Source: Phragmites australis
Taxonomy: Eukaryota; Streptophyta; Magnoliopsida; Poales; Poaceae
NCBI RefSeq assembly: GCF_958298935.1
Contig: NC_084927.1
Location: forward strand, 16,272,001-16,336,000
DNA: 64,000 bases
Direction: 5' to 3'
Positions 50,121 through 61,031 of this stretch are shown one piece after another. The notes below the pieces were generated by a model that ran no database searches, had not been told where the DNA came from, and saw only the letters and a program-made list of their open reading frames with translations. A program made the translations under genes and the position numbers. Each line of letters opens with the position of its first letter. Position 1 is the first letter of the stretch.

Positions 50121-50543
50121 TCAACCCAAAGATGTCTTGGTGAAGAGGCACGTTGTCAACCTAACTTCATTAGACGAAAAATCCGCAAGATATAAATATC
50201 CATGTCTAAAGCCTTTAAAGATTAGATCATTATGCTTCTTGCTAGTAATGACAACATCAACATCACTAAATATGCATGCAAAGCCTAAATCATATAGTTG
50301 AGCTATGGAAAGTAAATTGAAACTAAGAGACTCAACTAGAAGTACATTGGAGATAGAGAGATCATTGGAGATTACCACCTTACCCAAACCTACCCCATTT
50401 GCTTTTGAGTTATCACCAAAGGTGACTTTATCATGTCCACCCACTTCATCTTCTAGAGAGGTGAACATCTTTACATTGCCGGTCACATGTTGTGTACAAC
50501 CACTATCAAGCACCCAATACTTTCCGCCGGCTTTGTAGTTCAC
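50121..50543 (-). pseudogene. Protease of D
   Basis: GKYWVLDSGCTQHVTGNVKM has the catalytic D-S-G and the C-x-H-x-TG signature of copia retropepsin, then VTFGDNSKANGVGLGKVVIS, ISNVLLVESLSFNLLSIAQL and LYLADF. Open over 140 residues. It is separated from gag by one stop at about 50545. Confidence 0.9.
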
Positions 50544-50557
50544 CTACACACATGGGA

Positions 50558-52646
50558 TCAAGCTTTTTGTTTTGGTACCCAACCAAGTTTGGTACCTTTC
50601 ATGTGAGATACAAGATTCTTGGGCACCCAAATTTGCCTTGGAAGCTTGCCCTTTGCTTGAGTTCCAATGAACTTAGCCATGACTTTGCCACTCTTAAGCT
50701 TATGTAATAGAAAATGATGACTATTGAATGTAGACTTGTATTTAGATGGTAAAGTGGGAAGGGGTTTGGAAGGAATAGGACACTCACTTGTGTGGTGACC
50801 GGTGACTTCACAATGTTGACAATAGGAGCCAACTTCTTTGATGAAGCACTTGTTTATCTCCAGTGACTTGATGACCTTTTCCACCGGGTTGGGGAAGCAA
50901 CCAATACCTCTCTTGTTATAGTACATAGCATTCTTCATGAGAATTTCTTTATGCTTATACTCCCCTTTAGTCAACCGGGTCACACATGAATTTAATCTTG
51001 CAATCTCATCCCTAAGCTCTTTTTCCCTTGCATGGTTAGTCTTTAAAGATGATACATCATCACATGAAGATGAGCAAGGTATTTTAAGGAGATCATCACA
51101 AGATGTAGATGCATTAATCTTAACTACTTTAATGGTAGACAATTCATTTAAAGAAGAATAAATGGCATCATATGCAAGTTCAAGTTCTTGATATTTGCTT
51201 TTCAAGTCAACATGCTCAAGTTTTAGCTTTTTGTTACTAGCCTCAAGAGACTTGCTAGATGCAACTACTTCATTATTTTTCTTAAGCACATCATTGTATT
51301 TATCAAGCAACTCGTTATGACTAGAACAAAGCATAGCATTAGCATTTTCAAGAGACTTGATTTTAGCTTTTTTTTTCTTGATTATAGTAGCATAGTCATT
51401 CATGAGATTAGATAGATCACTAGGCAAAAGACCATCATCATCACTGCTATCATCTCCATCACTACTCACCTTGTTGTTACCTTTTGCCATGAGGCACATA
51501 GGTGGTGGAGGTAGGGGTGCATCATCATCATTGGTGATAGCAAGGCCCACGAGGTTGTTACTTTCATCATTACTTGAGTCATCACTTGAGCTTTCGTCGG
51601 AGACCCATTCATCAACAATATAAGCCTTGCGTCCTCCACCCTTCTTGTTGAAGAGCTTCTTCCTTGAATACTTACCTTGGCTCTTCTTCTTGTGCTTGTC
51701 CTCATCTTCCTTTTCTTCAATCTTCTTGCCCTTGTTCATGTTCTTCTTGTTGGGTTCAGGGCAATCCTATTACATGTGGCCAAGTTCATCACAATTGTAG
51801 CATCTTTCTTGTCTTCTCCACCGAACTTGTCAAATTTCTTTGGGCGAAATTTGTTCTTCTTAGGATCATAGTTGTAGCCCTTCTTTTGGAATTTTGGGAT
51901 CATCTTTGTAATTCTTCTCAAGAGAAGAGCAAGCTCGGCGTCGGAGTCATCATCATCATCACTATCTTCTTGATCGCTTTCTCTTGATAATGTGAGCTTC
52001 ATCATCTTCTTCTACTTGTCAACCATCTTTGCCTTGAGAGCAAGATTTTCTTGGACGAAGACTCATGATCTCCAAATAAGAACATCTCATGAGCACATAT
52101 TTTGCCAACGGCGTCGGTGATGATCGTGTCATTGATGACCCTTCTATGAAAAAGAGAGATGACAATGTTGTATTGCGGCTTTAAAACCACCATCAAGATC
52201 CTACGAATAACGTCTCCTTGAGACAATTGAGTTAGTTCAAGAGAGTTAATTTCGTCTACAAGCATATTCATGCGAGAATACATATCATTGCACAATTCAT
52301 TTGGAAGCATCTTGAATTGATTGAGAGCATTCATAAGCACATGATTTTCCTCACGAATTTTCCTAGAACTCTCACGAATTTCATAAAGAGTGGTCCAAAT
52401 CTCATTAGCATATTCCTTGCTACGAATTTTAGAGAAACCCTCTTAACTAATTCTCTCAAATATACCATTCTTAGCCTTAGCATTCCATCTAACTTGTTGG
52501 TCGGTAAAAGGGTGATCAAACCCAATGGAAGCGACTAGCCAAACTTCGGGAGAAATAGCCTTAAGATAGCTCGCCATGCGAACTTTCCAATAGGCGAAGT
52601 TCTTTCCATCGAACCTTGGTACACTACTTCCATTCCCCGGGGTCAT
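50558..52646 (-). pseudogene. Gag of D with coiled coil and zinc knuckle
   Basis: Opens MTPGNGSSVPRFDGKNFAYW at 52646 and continues in pieces (LPNELCNDMYSRMNMLVDEI; DDDDSDAELALLLRRITKMI). The last 393 residues are open: acidic Ser/Asp clusters, a long coiled-coil stretch (NANAMLCSSHNELLDKYNDV to LKSKYQELELAYDAIYSSLN), and a zinc knuckle CQHCEVTGHHTSEC. An upstream knuckle near 51760 is degraded. The large coiled-coil gag is typical of SIRE/Maximus elements. Frameshifts and a stop near 52440 break it. Confidence 0.88.
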
Positions 52647-52694: not shown

Positions 52695-53413
52695 TGAAAG
52701 GATCTAATGGCTCTAGAGGGGGGGTGAATAGGGCACTAATCAAAAACTAAACCAACTACCAATTTCTAGAACAAATAGCAACCTTAGCCTAGAATAAATA
52801 AAAACAACTAGACTACCTAGCAAGCTAGAATGATAAGCACAAACATGCAAGCATATAGAACATAAGTAAAGTGCGGAATTGAAACTTGCATGAAAGAAAT
52901 GCTAGAAGTAAAATGCGGATTGTTACAAGAGTAGGGAAATGGGACACCGAGTTTTTCCCGAGGTATCGAAGAGTTGGCACTCTCCACTAATCCTCATTCA
53001 AGCATCCACGCAAGGATATCACTCCCTGTTGAGTCACCAAGACTCAAGTGCTCACTAGTCATTGCCACTTTTCCATCTCCGGATTGGCGGGCATCAAACC
53101 AAGTACACAAGCTTCCCGGGGCTCCCACAAGACCTCCAAGAGCTCACCGAGAACACCTCCAATCTCCACAACCGGCTATGTGTTGCCAACCACCAAGAGT
53201 AACAAGCTAACTAGTTCACTTGATCCCTATCAAGCCTAAACAATAGCTAGATGCACACTCACTACTCTTGAAGCACTAATGGAGTCCTTAATCTTCAATT
53301 AAGAATATGCAAATCACCTCAAGTGCTCTCCCTTCTCTCTAGATGATACATACTGTGTATGAATACTTCTGGGTTGCAAGAGAGACGAATGAAACCAAGT
53401 GAGAGGTTATTCA
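52695..53413 (-). repeat. 5' LTR of D
   Basis: On the minus strand starts TGAATAACCTCTCACTTGG and ends ...AGATCCTTTCA, with matching TGAA/TTCA ends; 719 bp. Immediately right of it the E LTR sequence begins in mid-LTR. The start is placed by these ends, since no second D LTR is in the window for comparison. Confidence 0.7.
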
Positions 53414-55302
53414 ATGATTTTCTAATCTAAAAATTTGTGAAAAATAGTAGAATAAATTTATAAATTGGAAAATTGATTTAGAAAATATAGATTAATTATG
53501 ATAATGTTTAGAAATGATTTCTTTAATAGAATAAATGCTTTAAATTTGTTTTTATGCATATAAAAATTAGTTTATTCCTAGAAAAATGCAAATAAAGTCC
53601 ATAAAATTGTTTTAATCATTTCTATGTTATAAAATAATTCTAAAAAATATAAATAAATGTTTTAGGCCTTTTAAAAATTAGGTTTAATTCCAGAAAATAG
53701 TTTTCATCGTTTTAATCGTATAGAATTTTGTTTGGCCATATTTTTCGCTTCGTTGCTCCGATTTGGACGGTTCTTGTGCCCAAATCTTCCTGTTTGTGAG
53801 CCCTAGCTTGTTCCAATGTTTATTTTGTGTGTTTGCTTTGTTTAATGTTTGTTCTTAGTGGTGCTTGTTTGCTCGCTTGTAGAGGAGTTTGTTCCGAAAG
53901 CGTTCAAGAGCGTCCAGAATCAAGACTTCGGAGATTTTGAACAACTCATCGGAGAAGGTAAGTGTCCTTGAACATTCTGCACCTACTTTTATAAAGTTTT
54001 GCTTTACAAATTGCATGCTCGTCAACATGTTATCCCATTGTTAGGGTTTACTAGTTTTTCCTCAATATTCCTTGTAACCGTAGATGGGTTTTTCATGTTG
54101 GGTAGAAAGTGCTTAGTGATGCTAACTCTTGGGTAGCATAGTTGAATTATGTTGATATTAATGAAACTTGGTAAAAGTGCTTAGTCTAAGATAGTAGGGT
54201 TTGGGCAAGTTGGCATGTTTGTTGGCCTGTGGATGTGTTCCAGGTAGAATTGTGGGCTTTCAGATATTTGGTTATTTCCCTATTGATGGGTTGATGGCGG
54301 TCTTGCCCAGACCATATTAAGGACCGGTTCGTGGAGCGACCACCCATGAAAATAGTACAACCACAAGCCCGGTATGGACGGGCCTAGCCCAGTAATTCGT
54401 TTTTCTCTCAGCATTGTGATGATCACTTGGTGGTACGGGGACGGAAGGGTATACTTTCTAGAACCGTAAGGCACAAGAGGGGGCTTCTGGGGTGGAGGGT
54501 GTACTCCACTTATGTATGGCAATGAAATCTCAACAGGTCATCACGTGCTGAGAGAGACATTGGAAAGGCTTTGCAGTGGAATCCTGGCCACACACCTCGG
54601 AAGTATGTAAGTGTTTGATCGACACGGGCAAAAAGGAGGACACATCTGTAGAGTGAAAACTGAATATTCAACCGTGCTCACGGTCACGAGCGGTATGGAC
54701 TCCTCACATGATTAGTCAGGTGGTTCTTCGGGTTAGACTTGGGTTGGAATTGGTGAATCACAGTGGTGGGAACTGTGATTCCAGTTAGCTTTGTTTAGAG
54801 ATGGATGGAACCTCGGTTGAGGAGTAAGGTGGTGGAACCTTAGCTCTTACCTTAAAGAAATTATTCACATAGAAATAGTTCACCTTTATAACTGTTTACA
54901 AAGAAAATAGCATTTATGCCAATAAACCTTTTGAGTTAAGCCTACCTTGATTTTTGGTCCCATATCATAGTTTTTCCCACACTTGCTGAGTATACTATGT
55001 ACTCACGCTTGCTCTCTCCCCCTTATTGTTGTCGCGGCTCAGAAGCTGAAGACTACGAAGACTTTCCTGATGATGGAGCAGAATTTTCGGTCGAGTTCCT
55101 GTGGAGTTTGGGTTTCGCGCTGAGTTTAATTTTCGCTGCTCTGTAATCTGTTTTTAGACCCTTGGGGTTATTGATGTAATAATTACGGTGTAATAATGGA
55201 TATCGCGTTTGCTACTCGCTTATGACGTCACTACGTGTATGTATCTTGATCCTGGCATACATGAAGTTTACATTCGGTTTGGTCATAAAACCAGGTGTGA
55301 CA
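53414..55302 (+). repeat. 5' LTR of E, left part missing
   Basis: Begins in mid-LTR (ATGATTTTCTAATC, equivalent to about 62230) next to the D LTR, and ends ...CCAGGTGTGACA. Near-identical to 62230-64000. About 1.2 kb of the LTR start is lost beyond the D insertion. Confidence 0.9.
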
Positions 55303-55306
55303 GAAG

Positions 55307-55320
55307 TGGTATCAGAGCCA
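55307..55320 (+). promoter_or_regulatory. Primer-binding site of E
   Basis: TGGTATCAGAGCCA, four bases after the TGACA end of the 5' LTR; initiator-Met tRNA complement. Confidence 0.88.
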
Positions 55321-55476
55321 GGTCGACCATAGGACACAAGCCTAGATGGAAATGGTAGCGTGTTAAGGGTTTAATTCATAAAAAATATATTTGAAAAATC
55401 TTTGTTTACCCTTGTGCTTCTTTTTGTCGTTTTATTTAAAATGCTTTACTAATACTCTCCTATTTTCAACCTGTAG

Positions 55477-56274
55477 ATGGCCTGTACCAGGCAGACTGCT
55501 CGCAAGGCCACCAATGGCTACCTTCCTCCCCACGCCCTTGCCACCTTTGTACCCAACACTTCAGCTGGACCCAGCCGTGTTATCATCGTTCTCCAGCATG
55601 AAGGCAAAAAGTTGTACCACTCTGAGGGACTCGAAGCAAGGAAGGCGCCAATGATGCTAGTGGAGATGCTGCAACGACTGGGGTACACCAAGGCGCCCAT
55701 GTACCACGAACTTTATCAGCCTTGTCCAGGACGCAAGGAGTGGACTATCGAAGTGTGCATCTACGGTTCCCCAAAAGGCAATGACAGCTATAAGATCGCG
55801 GGAATCCACAAGGCAGTGGCAGTCCAGGCAAGCTTCGAGGCGGGAATCTGAGACGCAGCAAGACTGGCACTAGCTCACGTTTGTGAGGACAACATGAGCT
55901 TCTTGAGGGGGAGTTCCTATGACTACTTTCCCCGTCGAGAACGTGGGAGCAAGGACATTAAAATGAAGTCGACCACGCATGAGGAGAGTGGTGTGGTCCA
56001 TGAGCAGGTGCTGCTAACTACGATACTGCACAAGGACATGGATGAAGCTTTGGATGAACTCCAGGACACACGCAGGCATCTGCGGGAGGCAGAAGCACAA
56101 ATCAAGGAACTAAAGAGGAGCATTAATGGGATATCCAGTTCTTCAGACTCTGAGGGCCAGTCCATCCACCCGCCTTCTCCCAAGAGGCTACGCTACAATG
56201 ACCCTTCTAGCTCGGAGTCTTCAGGGGATGCCGACCAGTCAGTTGATGGACCAGGAGTTGGATCTCGTTCTTAG
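55477..56274 (+). pseudogene. Extra ORF before gag in E, with histone H3 tail-like N-terminus
   Basis: ATG 55477, 265 codons to TAG-region stop at 56274, interrupted once by TGA (55849-55851) in an otherwise constant frame. Residues 1-14 read M-A-C-T-R-Q-T-A-R-K-A-T-N-G, ten of them identical to the histone H3 start. After it comes a small domain of unknown type (SAGPSRVIIVLQHEGKKLYH, APMYHELYQPCPGRKEWTIE, and past the stop ARLALAHVCEDNMSFLRGSS then YDYFPRRERG), a coiled coil (DELQDTRRHLREAEAQIKEL) and a Ser-rich acidic end. It is not a histone: no histone fold follows. The frame follows the primer site by 150 bases, so it would be the first protein on the genomic RNA. Function unknown. Confidence 0.75.
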
Positions 56275-56525: not shown

Positions 56526-57890
56526 GAGGAACGCTAGTAACGCTAATGCCAACAACAGCAATAACAACGACGGCAACACTAACCCACAGTTGCCAAACCC
56601 ACGGCCACAGGTCAACATGGAGCGGTTGCTAATGATGCAGACATAGATTCTGCAGGGCTTGGTTCAAACTGCAGTAAATATACAGTAAGCCCCAGCATAG
56701 ATACAAGCCCCTCCTCCGTCGCAGAACAAGTTGGGGGAATTTATGAGAACCAAGCCACCTGTGTTCTCTCAGGCCATAGAGCCAATGGATGCATATGACT
56801 GGTTAAAAGCTACAGGAAAGAAACTTTGGATAGCTCAAAGCAATGACAGAGAAAAAGTCTTGTTCGCCTCACATCAACTCTCTGGACCAGTAACAGATTG
56901 GTGGGATGCTTATACTAATGCACATGAAGATCCTCAAGCTATTACTTGGACAGAGTTTAGAAATAGCTTTTGTACTCATCATATACCTGCCGGAGCTATG
57001 AAGATCAAGAAGAAGGAATTCTAGGAGTTAAAGCAAGGATCAATGTCTGTAAGTGAATATGTGGCCAAATTCACTCAACTGTCAAGGTATGCGCCATCTA
57101 AGGTGGACACTGATGAAAAGAAGTAGGAGCACTTCTTGGAGGGACTGAACGATGGGATTCAGTATGTATTGCTTCCTCAGGACTTTGCCAGTTTTCAAGC
57201 TATGGTGAACAAAGCATTGGTGGTGGAAAACCAACGCCGCTAGATGGAGCACAAGAGGAAGATGTCCTCCCAAGGTCAGGAATCAAGCAGTCACTCTCGT
57301 CCCCGTTACAACCCGCCTCAGCAAGGACCAATCTTTTGTCAGCAGAACCAAAATAGACCTCAGATGCAAACCCCGCATTCAAGCTTCTAGACCACTCATC
57401 AGACGCCACCACTAGCACATCAACAGAAGAATGGCAACCAAGCTCCCATCACCGAAAAGGCATGTTTCAATTGTGGTGAAGAAGGGCATTATACCAATAG
57501 ATGCCCAAAGAAACGTCCAGTTGTCACCTAAGGACAGTACAATAACAATGGTGTGAAGCCAGGTCAAACTCAGAACCAGGGACGTAATGGAAACCAAGCT
57601 CCAGTCCAAGGCAATCGTGCACAACAGAACTATGTGCACGGAAAGGTCAACCACGTCACCGTTGAAGAAGCCCAGGACGCTCAGGATGTTGTGCTTGGTA
57701 TGTTTCTTGTCAACTCAAACCCAGCCTCAGTATTATTTGATTCGGGAGCATCGCATTCTTTCATCACTACACGGTATATTGCGAGGTACAATTTGCCCAT
57801 TACATCCATGAGTCGACCAATGCTTATTAGCTCTCTGGGTGGAGAAATGAGGGCAAAATATATATGCCCCAAGATACATCTGAAAATAAG
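56526..57890 (+). pseudogene. Gag and protease of E
   Basis: An Asn-rich lead (from about 56526; first ATG 56617) precedes the retrotransposon gag domain: IEPMDAYDWLKATGKKLWIA, VTDWWDAYTNAHEDPQAITW, GSMSVSEYVAKFTQLSRYAP. A zinc knuckle CFNCGEEGHYTNRC (57466-57507) and the protease ASVLFDSGASHSFITTRYIA with catalytic D-S-G (about 57728) follow. About eight stops occur, mostly TAG or TAA in places where Gln is expected. A frameshift near 57880 leads into the next segment. Confidence 0.9.
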
Positions 57891-60800
57891 GGGGTAGACT
57901 TTCCAACCAACCTTATAGTTTTGGAATCCAACGGTATAGATATCATTCTCGGAATGGATTGGTTAGCAAAGTTTAATGGTATGATAGAATGTGCCCGAAG
58001 AGCAGTTCAACTAACCAATGAAGAAGGTACCAGTATCGAGTTCGTGGCAACCATACCATCAAATGGGGATTGTGAACTCAATAGTTTGAAGGGTGTTCCT
58101 ATGGAAGCAGTCAATGTGGTGTGCGAATATCTGGACGTCTTCCCTAATGACTTGCTAGGTATGCCGCCAGACCGAGATATTGAGTTTATAATTGAGCTTG
58201 TAACGGGAACAACCCTGATAGCTAAACGGCCATATAGGATGCCTGCAAATGAACTAGTGGAACTTAAGAAACAAACCCAAGAATCAGAGGATAAGGGTTT
58301 TGTGCGCCCAAGTTCGTGACCATGGGGAGACCTAGTTCTCTTCATTGAAAAGAAAGATGGTAGCCAAAGGATGTGCGTGGACTATAGAGCTCTCAATGAT
58401 GTAACTATCAAGAACAAGTATCCGCTACCTAGGATTGAAGATCTGTTTGATTAGTTAAAAGGAGCATGTGTTTTCTCCAAAATTGACCTTCGCTCAGGTT
58501 ATCACCAACTGAAGATCCAAGAGTCAGATATACCCAAGACAGCTTTCAGTACCCGATATGGTCTTTATGAATTTAAGGTTATGTCTTTCGGGTTAACCAA
58601 TGCCCCGGCATACTTCATGTACCTCATGAACAAAGTGTTTATGGAGTATTTGGATAAGCTCGTAGTTGTTTTCATCGATGATATCCTCATCTTCTCAAAG
58701 GATGAACAAGAACACGAAGAACACTTAAGGATCGTGTTGCAGAAGCTTAGAGATAACTAGTTATACGCTAAGTTCAGTAAATGTGAATTCTGGTTGGAGC
58801 AAGTCTCTTTCCTTGGCCATATCATCTCAGCAAGTGGAGTAGTTGTAGATCCAAGCAAAGTTAGAGATGTTTTGAACTGGAAGCCACCTCAATCTGTCTC
58901 AGAGATCCGAAGCTTTCTTGGATTAGCTGGGTATTATCGTCGATTTATAGAAGGTTTTTCCAAGATAGCTAAGCCACTCACGGAGTTGTTACAAAAGGAT
59001 AAGAAGTTTCAATGGTGTGAAGCTTGTCAAGCCAGTTTTGAAAAGTTGAAGAATAGATTGACTACAGCCCCAGTACTTGTTCTACCGAATGTTTGTAAGA
59101 ACTTTGATATCTATTGTGATGCTTCTCGACAAGGTTTTGGATGCGTTCTTATGCAAGAAGGAAAAGTCGTGGCTTACGCGTCAAGGCAATTAAGGAATTA
59201 TGAGAAAAATTATCCAACTCATGATTTAGAGCTAGCCGCAGTCGTTCATGCTTTGAAGATTTGGAGGCACTATCTTGTCGGTAATCGGTGTGAAATATAT
59301 ATGGATCACAAGAGTCTAAAATACATCTTCACCGAGTAGTACTTAAATCTAAGGCAACGCAGATGGCTAGAATTGATCAAGGACTATGATGTAGGAATTC
59401 ACTACCATCCTGGTAAAGCCAACGTAGTCGCAGATGCTTTGAGCCGAAAGGTGTATTGCAACACTATCATGGTACAAGAATCTCAACCAGCTCTGTACAA
59501 AGAATTCCAGCAACTTAACTTGGGAATTGTCATGAATAAAGGACCTGTGGTCATGGAAATCGAGCCTACCTTAAATGAAGAGATCCGTAAAGGACAAATG
59601 GAAGATGAGAAAATCAGAGAAATCAAACAGAATATAAAGGGAGGCAAGGCTCCTGGATTTTCTGAGGATGATCAAGGTATCATATGGTTCGGAAAACGCA
59701 TTTGCGTACCGGACCAAAAAGAGCTTAAGGATGTAATTCTGAAAGAGGCCCATGAATCAGCCTACTCCATCCATCCAGGCAGTACCAAGATGTACCAAGA
59801 TTTGAAAGCACGATACTGGTGGTATGGCATGAAGCGTGATGTTACAGAATATGTAGCCCTTTGTGACACTTGCCAGAGAGTAAAAGCAGAACATCAGAGG
59901 CCCGTTGGATTACATCAACCCTTGAAGGATCCAGAATGGAAATGGAAAGAGATTGGTATGGATTTCATCGTTGGGTTACCTCGCACCCAGTCTGGCTACA
60001 ATTCAATATGGGTAGTAGTAGATCGTTTGACAAAGGTTGCTCACTTTATCTCAGTCAAGACCACGTATACAAGTGCACAGCTCGCAGAAGTGTATATGTC
60101 ACGGATTGTTTATCTTCATGGCGTACCCAAGAAGATTGTGTCAGATTGAGGCACTCAGTTCACTTCACGATTCTGGCAGAAACTTCATGAGTCCATGGAT
60201 ACAAAGTTAAATTTCTGCTCAACATATCATCCTCAAACCGATGGCCAAATAGAAAGGACAAATCAGATACTAGAAGATATGTTAAGGGCATGTGCCTTGA
60301 AATATAGACGCAGTTGGGATAAGAGCCTTCCATATGCAGAATTCTCTTACAACAACAGTTATCAAGCCAGCCTCAAGATGTCTCCATTTGAAGCCCTGTA
60401 CGGTAGGAAGTGCAGAACTCCGTTATATAGGAATGAAACTAGAGAAAGTCAAGTATTTGGACCGGAAGTACTACAGAATGCAGAAAAGCAAGTCCGAATG
60501 ATTCGAGATAATCTAAGGACTGCACAATCAAGGCAAAAGAGCTACACCGATAATAGACGAAGAGAATTGACTTTTGAAATTGGAGATCTCGTGTATCTCA
60601 AAGTCTCACCTATCAGGGGACTTCGAAGATTCAAAGTCAAGGGAAAACTGGCACCCAGATATATTGGACCGTTCAAGGTATTAGACAAAAGAGGGGAAGT
60701 GGCATATCAACTGGAGATACCATCTCAACTTTCTGATGTACATAGTGTCTTTCATATATCTCAATTGAAGAAATGCTTACGAGTGCCCGAAGAATAGTTG

Positions 60801-61031
60801 CCTATGGAGGAATTGGATGTTCGAGAAGATCTCACATACCCAGAGCACCCAGTGAGAATCCTCGAAACAGCCGAAAGGGTTACCAGGAGAAAAGTGATTC
60901 ACATGTGCAAGGTACAGTGGAGTCACCATTCTGAAGCTGAAGCCACATGGGAAAGAGAAGAAGATCTGAAGACGGAATTTCCCCAGCTGTTTGGAGAACA
61001 TCCCGAATCTCGAGGACGAGATTCATCCTAA
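57864..61031 (+). pseudogene. Pol of E: RT, RNase H, integrase, chromodomain
   Basis: One frame with six internal stops. [42 protein letters not shown] and [16 protein letters not shown] (catalytic F-I-D-D, 58674). RNase [38 protein letters not shown] and [14 protein letters not shown]. Integrase: an HHCC finger (IHPGSTKMYQDLKARYWW ... CDTCQRVKAEHQRP), then IGMDFIVGLPRT (Asp), VSD-stop-GTQFTSRFW (Asp) and YHPQTDGQIERTNQ (Glu). The GPY/F module KLAPRYIGPFKVLDKRGEVA precedes a chromodomain (HPVRILETAERVTRRKVIHM, VQWSHHSEAEATWEREEDLK, 60850-60990). Chromodomains of this group are thought to steer insertion to heterochromatin. Confidence 0.92.

Follow-up and report, generated by a model that had tools for sequence, protein, structure and literature searches.

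The stretch of DNA analysed here, called the window throughout, comprises 64,000 nucleotides of Phragmites australis (contig NC_084927.1, positions 16,272,001 to 16,336,000) and contains a long terminal repeat (LTR) retrotransposon that, judged by its sequence, is a decayed copy of a Tekay-type chromovirus. Between the primer site and gag of this element lies an extra open reading frame (ORF), ORF0, whose product begins with a look-alike of the histone H3 tail. The ORF0 copy in the window is itself decayed: one tail arginine is lost, and an in-frame TGA at 55849-55851 splits the span 55477-56274, which an earlier sequence-only reading had taken for a single ORF. The parts of ORF0 are listed below, with domain positions mapped from P0001, a 72% identical relative; dsRBD stands for double-stranded-RNA-binding domain.

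55477..55518, plus strand: H3-tail look-alike MACTRQTARKATNG, from the translation and conserved in relatives
55477..55851, plus strand: first open piece of ORF0, 124 aa, closed by the in-frame TGA (ORF translation)
55894..56274, plus strand: second open piece of ORF0, 126 aa, in the same frame (ORF translation)
55633..55896, plus strand: equivalent of the predicted dsRBD-like domain (P0001 residues 53-140), from residue-number mapping, the AlphaFold2 model of P0001 and VIA-align 2
about 55990-56133, plus strand: equivalent of the predicted coiled coil, from the P0001 model
56176-56193, plus strand: basic motif SPKRLR, a C-terminal motif kept in distant members

As the sequence-only reading had stated, the start MACTRQTARKATNG agrees with H3 MARTKQTARKSTGG at 10 of 14 positions, in register from the initiator Met, or at 9 of 13 without the Met. 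The Cys codon is TGT, as given there; among 41 copies, the window and 40 others of its genome, 39 have Arg at this position and two have Cys. A random N-terminal 13-mer has a 7.5e-9 chance of reaching at least 9 matches, for an assumed residue composition. In 16 representatives, picked for showing the tail and with near relatives among them, H3 is matched at 159 of 208 tail residues, where column shuffles predict 30 and 0 of 200000 shuffles reach 159. This set leaves out P0010 and P0046, includes two members that come from a tail-containing query (P0004 and P0006), and takes Met 36 as the start of P0006, P0024 and P0051. A profile of eight close ORF0s matches histone H3 in the PDB in register, with a best E of 9.6e-4, and a profile of 15 tails (the representatives without L053) does so with a best E of 6.2e-8. 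The best 60 of the 137 PDB matches of the tail profile are H3, its variants or chimeras, one labelled Cse4; a body-only profile returned no histone among the 37 PDB matches listed. In sequence terms, the start of ORF0 is a look-alike of the H3 tail that is in register, beyond chance and conserved over deep divergence.

The depth of this conservation is apparent from relatives found without the tail. A profile of five ORF0 bodies, from which the tails had been removed, retrieved 57 relatives from protein databases in a search that was non-exhaustive, as P0004, whose body was in the query, is missing from the matches. An H3-like start matching at 7 to 14 of 14 positions is present in 12 of the 57, the lowest score being that of P0046 (7 of 14), and P0029 has a partial one (TPRKSTGG). 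The remaining 44 lack an H3-like start and were left unscored; by eye, they begin within the linker or domain, are frame-shifted or are chimeric. In P0024 and P0051, the tail is located at residue 36 of the predicted protein. P0017, from the panicoid grass Urochloa humidicola, starts with MARTKQTARKSTGG and equals H3 at 14 of 14 positions, with a body that is ~28% identical to the window family. In 69 pairs with body identity below 0.35, mean tail identity is 0.62-0.68 and mean body identity 0.22-0.28. When 10 distant pairs were chosen for comparison, residues 1-13 formed the most conserved segment of the protein, and the next separate one was the C-terminal SP..KRLR stretch. The equivalents of H3 A1, R2 and K9 are invariant in the 16 chosen representatives, and the K4 equivalent is Lys in 8, Arg in 7 and Trp in one. 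Many relatives are closer to H3 than the window copy is, and the tail pattern is wider and cleaner than the window alone could show. Stop-free relatives keep the tail, and the condition that the sequence-only reading had set for coincidence does not refute the likeness. One further protein, P0003, has a piece of family PF00521, presumably of DNA gyrase A type, fused to an ORF0 piece and is probably a metagenome assembly chimera.

Within the Phragmites genome (848 Mb, 28 contigs, the window lying on C7), the first ORF piece was used as query and 150 matches were scored from 1227 candidates, many of them with open frames of at least 265 aa. The 40 copies fetched are the top matches to a query that included the tail; together with the window, 25 of the 41 are stop-free, defined as having no stop across 265 codons, and 16 are broken. 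The start MARVKQTARKTTGG is shared by 15 of the 25 stop-free copies, the others carrying variants such as MARIKKTARKTTGG and MARTRQTARKATNG. The K9 and T6 equivalents are kept in 41 of 41 copies and R8 in 36, and all five R8 losses fall among the 16 broken copies, with none among the 25 stop-free ones. The Urochloa protein as query gave 111 genomic matches, all to the body only (query residue 152 onward), and led to two further ORF0 families of 249 aa and 247 aa. A start could be read at 28 of 30 loci of these families and was unreadable at two; the commonest starts are MARTRLTARKQVGG in the 249-aa family and MARTKITPRKRVLV in the 247-aa family.

The element that carries ORF0 in the window has the following features.

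53407..55302, plus strand: 5' LTR, ~1.9 kb, ending in ...GGTGTGACA; it pairs with a second copy from 62225, and its right end was read before the primer site
55307..55319, plus strand: primer binding site TGGTATCAGAGCC, with the same motif in two other ORF0 families
55449..55476, plus strand: splice-acceptor-like leader end (CTAAT, a pyrimidine-rich tract and TGTAG abutting the ATG), shared with copies
56731..57024, plus strand: gag fragment (Retrotrans_gag), Pfam E 3.8e-6, 27.5 bits against a cut-off of 24.1
58794..60797, plus strand: pol in three pieces, with RNase H, an integrase zinc-binding domain and an SH3-like C-terminal domain (Pfam)
60798..61028 (about), plus strand: Tekay-type chromodomain region (ERVTRRK ... 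CKVQW ... EAEATWERE), by the motifs in PMC3350952
62225..64000, plus strand: 3' LTR, truncated by the window end (LTR alignment)

The two LTRs are 95.4% identical across 1773 alignment columns, and the primer site is one that we take to be of the initiator-Met tRNA type. A chromodomain had been predicted at the end of pol and is present at ~60798-61028, behind a further in-frame stop. Papers cited here by PMC number were covered in part, and statements credited to them refer to those parts. Two motifs after the integrase are published for Tekay, (K/R)x(L/T)Rx(K/R) and EExTWExE (PMC3350952); in the window they correspond to RVTRRK and to AEATWERE, the latter with one difference. A Tekay-like chromodomain was found in seven of eight downstream pieces fetched from three ORF0 families; the eighth shows none. 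Farther upstream, at 50121-52340 on the minus strand, open pieces resemble by eye the gag and protease of another element, of Ty1/copia type.

ORF0s of this kind were described by Gao et al. 2012 in Retrosat2, RIRE3, RIRE8 and FRetro3, with no function established (PMC3485330). Similar to those elements, the window element has its extra ORF upstream of gag-pol, and the described ORF0s likewise belong to long grass Ty3/gypsy elements and diverge strongly between families; the likeness drawn here is one of description. The LTR end, GGTGTGACA, is likewise comparable to the GGGCGTGACA given for the families of PMC3485330. The LTR is ~1.9 kb long, compared with ~3 kb or more in the Retrosat2/RIRE3/RIRE8 group; because of this length, the element is treated as a relative and not assigned to those families. 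The authors of PMC3485330 reported no ORF0 outside the grasses and, on the basis of homology models, suggested hydrolases and other enzymes. An enzyme is unsupported by the Pfam families listed or by the fold matches obtained here. The word histone occurs 0 times in the main text of PMC3485330, and the parts covered make no mention of an H3 tail or a dsRBD-like fold. New here are the predicted dsRBD-like fold, the coiled coil, the conserved KRLR-type motif and the splice-acceptor-like leader end at the ATG.

The intact ORF0 protein appears to comprise four parts: an unfolded H3-like tail comes first, followed by a dsRBD-like domain and a long coiled coil, with a basic SP..KRLR stretch towards the C terminus. 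In the AlphaFold2 model of P0001, the tail is unfolded and is followed by an alpha-beta-beta-beta-alpha domain of dsRBD-like fold and by the coiled coil. Structure comparison of the predicted domain places DRB7.2, DRB4, HYL1 and DCL4 among its best matches, at ~7-20% sequence identity. The body is predicted to be of this non-histone make-up, in agreement with the sequence-only reading, and no Pfam match to a histone fold domain was obtained for the two window pieces (E<=0.1) or P0001 (E<=10). A host histone gene in the window can be dismissed, there being no histone fold. The C-terminal SP..KRLR motif, which is conserved in distant members, looks like a nuclear localisation signal.

We propose, with a probability of roughly 0.5, that ORF0 is a nuclear adaptor that presents its H3-like tail to chromatin proteins and so counters silencing. 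The protein would enter the nucleus by way of its basic motif. As the second residue is Ala, the initiator Met would by general rules be cleaved off, leaving A1-R2-T3-K/R4 free at the N terminus in the manner of H3. This tail would then serve as a binding site, and at its K9 equivalent possibly as a methylation substrate, for host factors that act on the H3 tail, for example H3K9 methyltransferases of the SUVH type and their readers. The dsRBD-like domain and coiled coil could join ORF0 to itself, to partners of DRB/Dicer type or to element RNA, and the tail would act locally as an anti-silencing adaptor rather than as a bulk histone decoy. By the known binding rules for H3K9 writers and readers and for readers of the free H3 N terminus, the invariant A1-R2 and K9 and the mostly kept R8 fit such partners. 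Titrating silencing factors away by simple competition is a less likely mode of action, given the great abundance of histones. What stands of the original interpretation is an H3-tail look-alike, kept in relatives and carried by a Tekay-type element; its function as a mimic is a proposal.

Several observations weigh against this proposal. Recent substitution rates disagree with the deep conservation of the tail: among the 25 stop-free copies, compared position by position without gaps, the ratio of nonsynonymous to synonymous differences (pN/pS) in the tail has values of 0.51, 0.53, 0.54 and 1.20 in four comparisons, all above the 0.27-0.32 of the fold. In at least four of these copies (L009, L012, L023 and L045), the C-terminal end is altered, and this inflates pN/pS for the C-terminal part and for the ORF as a whole. 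The register of the tail, which the sequence-only reading had proposed to check along with selection, is kept in relatives, but recent selection on the tail is unsupported by its pN/pS in this genome, where 13 codons provide few sites and little power. The positions equivalent to K4, Q5, S10 and T11 vary, with S10 often Arg and A7 sometimes Pro; the G12-G13 pair is lost in one family, and P0046 retains K9 without A1, R2 or R8. For the predicted domain, no Pfam dsRBD (dsrm) match was found for the window pieces or P0001 (E<=10), nor was dsrm among the 25 of 46 families listed for 23 members, and because of this the domain is named dsRBD-like only. The motif KKxAK, the basic dsRNA-binding motif at the last dsRBD helix, is absent from that helix in the members examined (SFEAGIRDAARQAL in P0001 and TYAASVSAAAKRAL in P0017), which makes RNA binding doubtful. 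With Foldseek alone, neither of two models had a match at E<=0.001, and no dsRBD was among the best 50 matches of the second. In a viral structure library, the best match was a DRBM-domain protein (E 0.01), with none at E<=0.001, and the body sequence profile gave weak PDB matches (best E 0.27), mostly to coiled-coil stretches. The argument from histone abundance against simple titration was made for another protein (PMC10833455).

A tentative elaboration, less probable than the adaptor itself, is that ORF0 proteins form a widespread family in grass chromoviruses, each displaying an entire H3 tail on a nuclear scaffold of dsRBD-like domain and coiled coil. Such a protein would be a two-headed suppressor acting on both arms of plant transposon silencing, with a tail that touches H3K9 methylation and a domain that touches the small-RNA machinery through DRB/Dicer partners. 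Influenza NS1, a histone mimic, has a comparable two-headed layout.

Alternatively, the tail may owe its conservation to a role as a basic peptide in nuclear import or in binding nucleic acid, its H3 likeness reflecting shared import or charge needs rather than chromatin signalling, as importins also read H3 tails. The tail is basic and predicted to be unfolded, Lys and Arg interchange at the K4 equivalent, and a further basic motif of the protein is conserved as well. This last point cuts both ways, in that the C-terminal KRLR motif would suffice for import. Moreover, the constraint is one of position and not of charge alone: the 16 representatives show little or no variation at A1, R2, T6, K9 and G13, no column shuffle matches H3 equally well, and a requirement for an exact N terminus is atypical of import signals. 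We therefore regard this alternative as unlikely.

Quite improbable is a reading, put forward by the sequence-only reading, in which the integrase chromodomain of the element itself binds the tail, tethering ORF0 to the integration complex. A Tekay chromodomain does accompany ORF0 in the window and in most of the downstream pieces. However, Group II plant chromodomains lack Y24 and usually Y48 of the methyl-lysine cage, and their interacting factor is given as not known (PMC3350952). In the window, W45 is retained and the W+3 position is His, so that the cage of the element's own chromodomain looks incomplete. Relatives outside the grasses, including those of Arabidopsis and soybean, are reported to carry a gag-pol ORF and no ORF0 (PMC3485330).

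Similarly improbable is that the element once took up the start of a host H3 gene, its 5' end, and that the tail survives as an inherited relic of little present function. The identity of one member to H3 over 14 residues would be explained most simply by a fused H3 start, and the tail pN/pS is not low. A relic should diverge with the body, whereas tail identity stays at 0.62-0.68 where body identity is 0.22-0.28, and synonymous codons differ under conserved residues, the T6 codon being ACT, ACA or ACC across three families. A capture origin with later constraint is possible. Chance resemblance in a single ORF, which the 9 of 13 matches of the window copy alone might have allowed, is ruled out for practical purposes by the conservation, the shuffles and the H3 profile match at E 6.2e-8.

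Comparison with known systems places the adaptor proposal among histone mimics and transposon-encoded anti-silencing proteins. SNAG domains of SNAIL/GFI1 are N-terminal H3-tail mimics that bind LSD1; compared with ORF0, they are only loosely H3-like and occur on host transcription factors. Similar to the partners of EHMT with an ARKS motif (PMC10611923) and to the disputed mimic SARS-CoV-2 ORF8 (PMC10833455), ORF0 has a short H3-like sequence on a non-histone protein. Other mimics are motifs of a few residues, internal or terminal, whereas the likeness in ORF0 extends for up to 14 residues from its own N terminus, across distant families and on an LTR retrotransposon. Like VANC of Arabidopsis VANDAL elements, ORF0 would be an accessory protein encoded by a plant transposon that acts against silencing; VANC differs in binding noncoding regions of specific element copies, and its abstract mentions no H3-like tail (PMC10398659). 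Plant dsRBD proteins such as DRB7.2, DRB4, HYL1 and DCL4 share the predicted fold of the ORF0 domain, which differs from them in having neither a Pfam dsrm match nor the canonical basic motif. No H3-like tail on a plant retrotransposon protein was found in the titles and abstract openings of the literature matches listed, a set with few full texts and with preprints outside it, and the part of meeting report PMC12859917 covered contains neither the word mimic nor the term ORF0. ORFs of the ORF0 kind are already known, and the H3-like tail is an added feature, conserved in distant relatives. If the adaptor proposal is true, it assigns a function to ORFs for which none was obvious when they were described in 2012, makes histone-tail mimicry by a plant retrotransposon open to testing, over a stretch longer than the usual short motifs, and raises the question of how such elements survive in the face of H3K9 methylation and RNA-directed silencing. 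Mechanism aside, an H3-like tail at 22-28% body identity demands explanation.

The leader upstream of ORF0 has features of an intron. Of 67 copies having a start ATG, 66 show AG/ATG and 62 carry a CTRAY motif 23-25 nt upstream, counted from its A. The string of the primer site could be located in 57 copies, and in 52 of these GACC/GTAGG follows it. The resulting pattern (GACC/GTAGG ... CTRAY ... YAG/ATG) is common to three ORF0 families (55307-55476 in the window; L009-L078), and the GT of the putative intron reads AT in the window copy. Together, the three motifs suggest an intron within the leader, its 3' end abutting the ORF0 start codon; the counts come from related copies and provide a lead rather than proof. 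In the database ORF0s P0006, P0024 and P0051, 35 residues precede the H3-like Met, ending in LQ directly before it, and this extension would fit an unspliced leader read as coding.

Copies of the 249-aa family recur at ~8.6-kb intervals (G000:C10:34239269, 34247921 and 34256564; C21:22864738 and 22873393; C3:399358 and 407983), a spacing that suggests tandem elements sharing LTRs. At G000:C3:27979317-27979940, the open frame that contains an ORF0 match is 4396 aa long and far exceeds the others listed.
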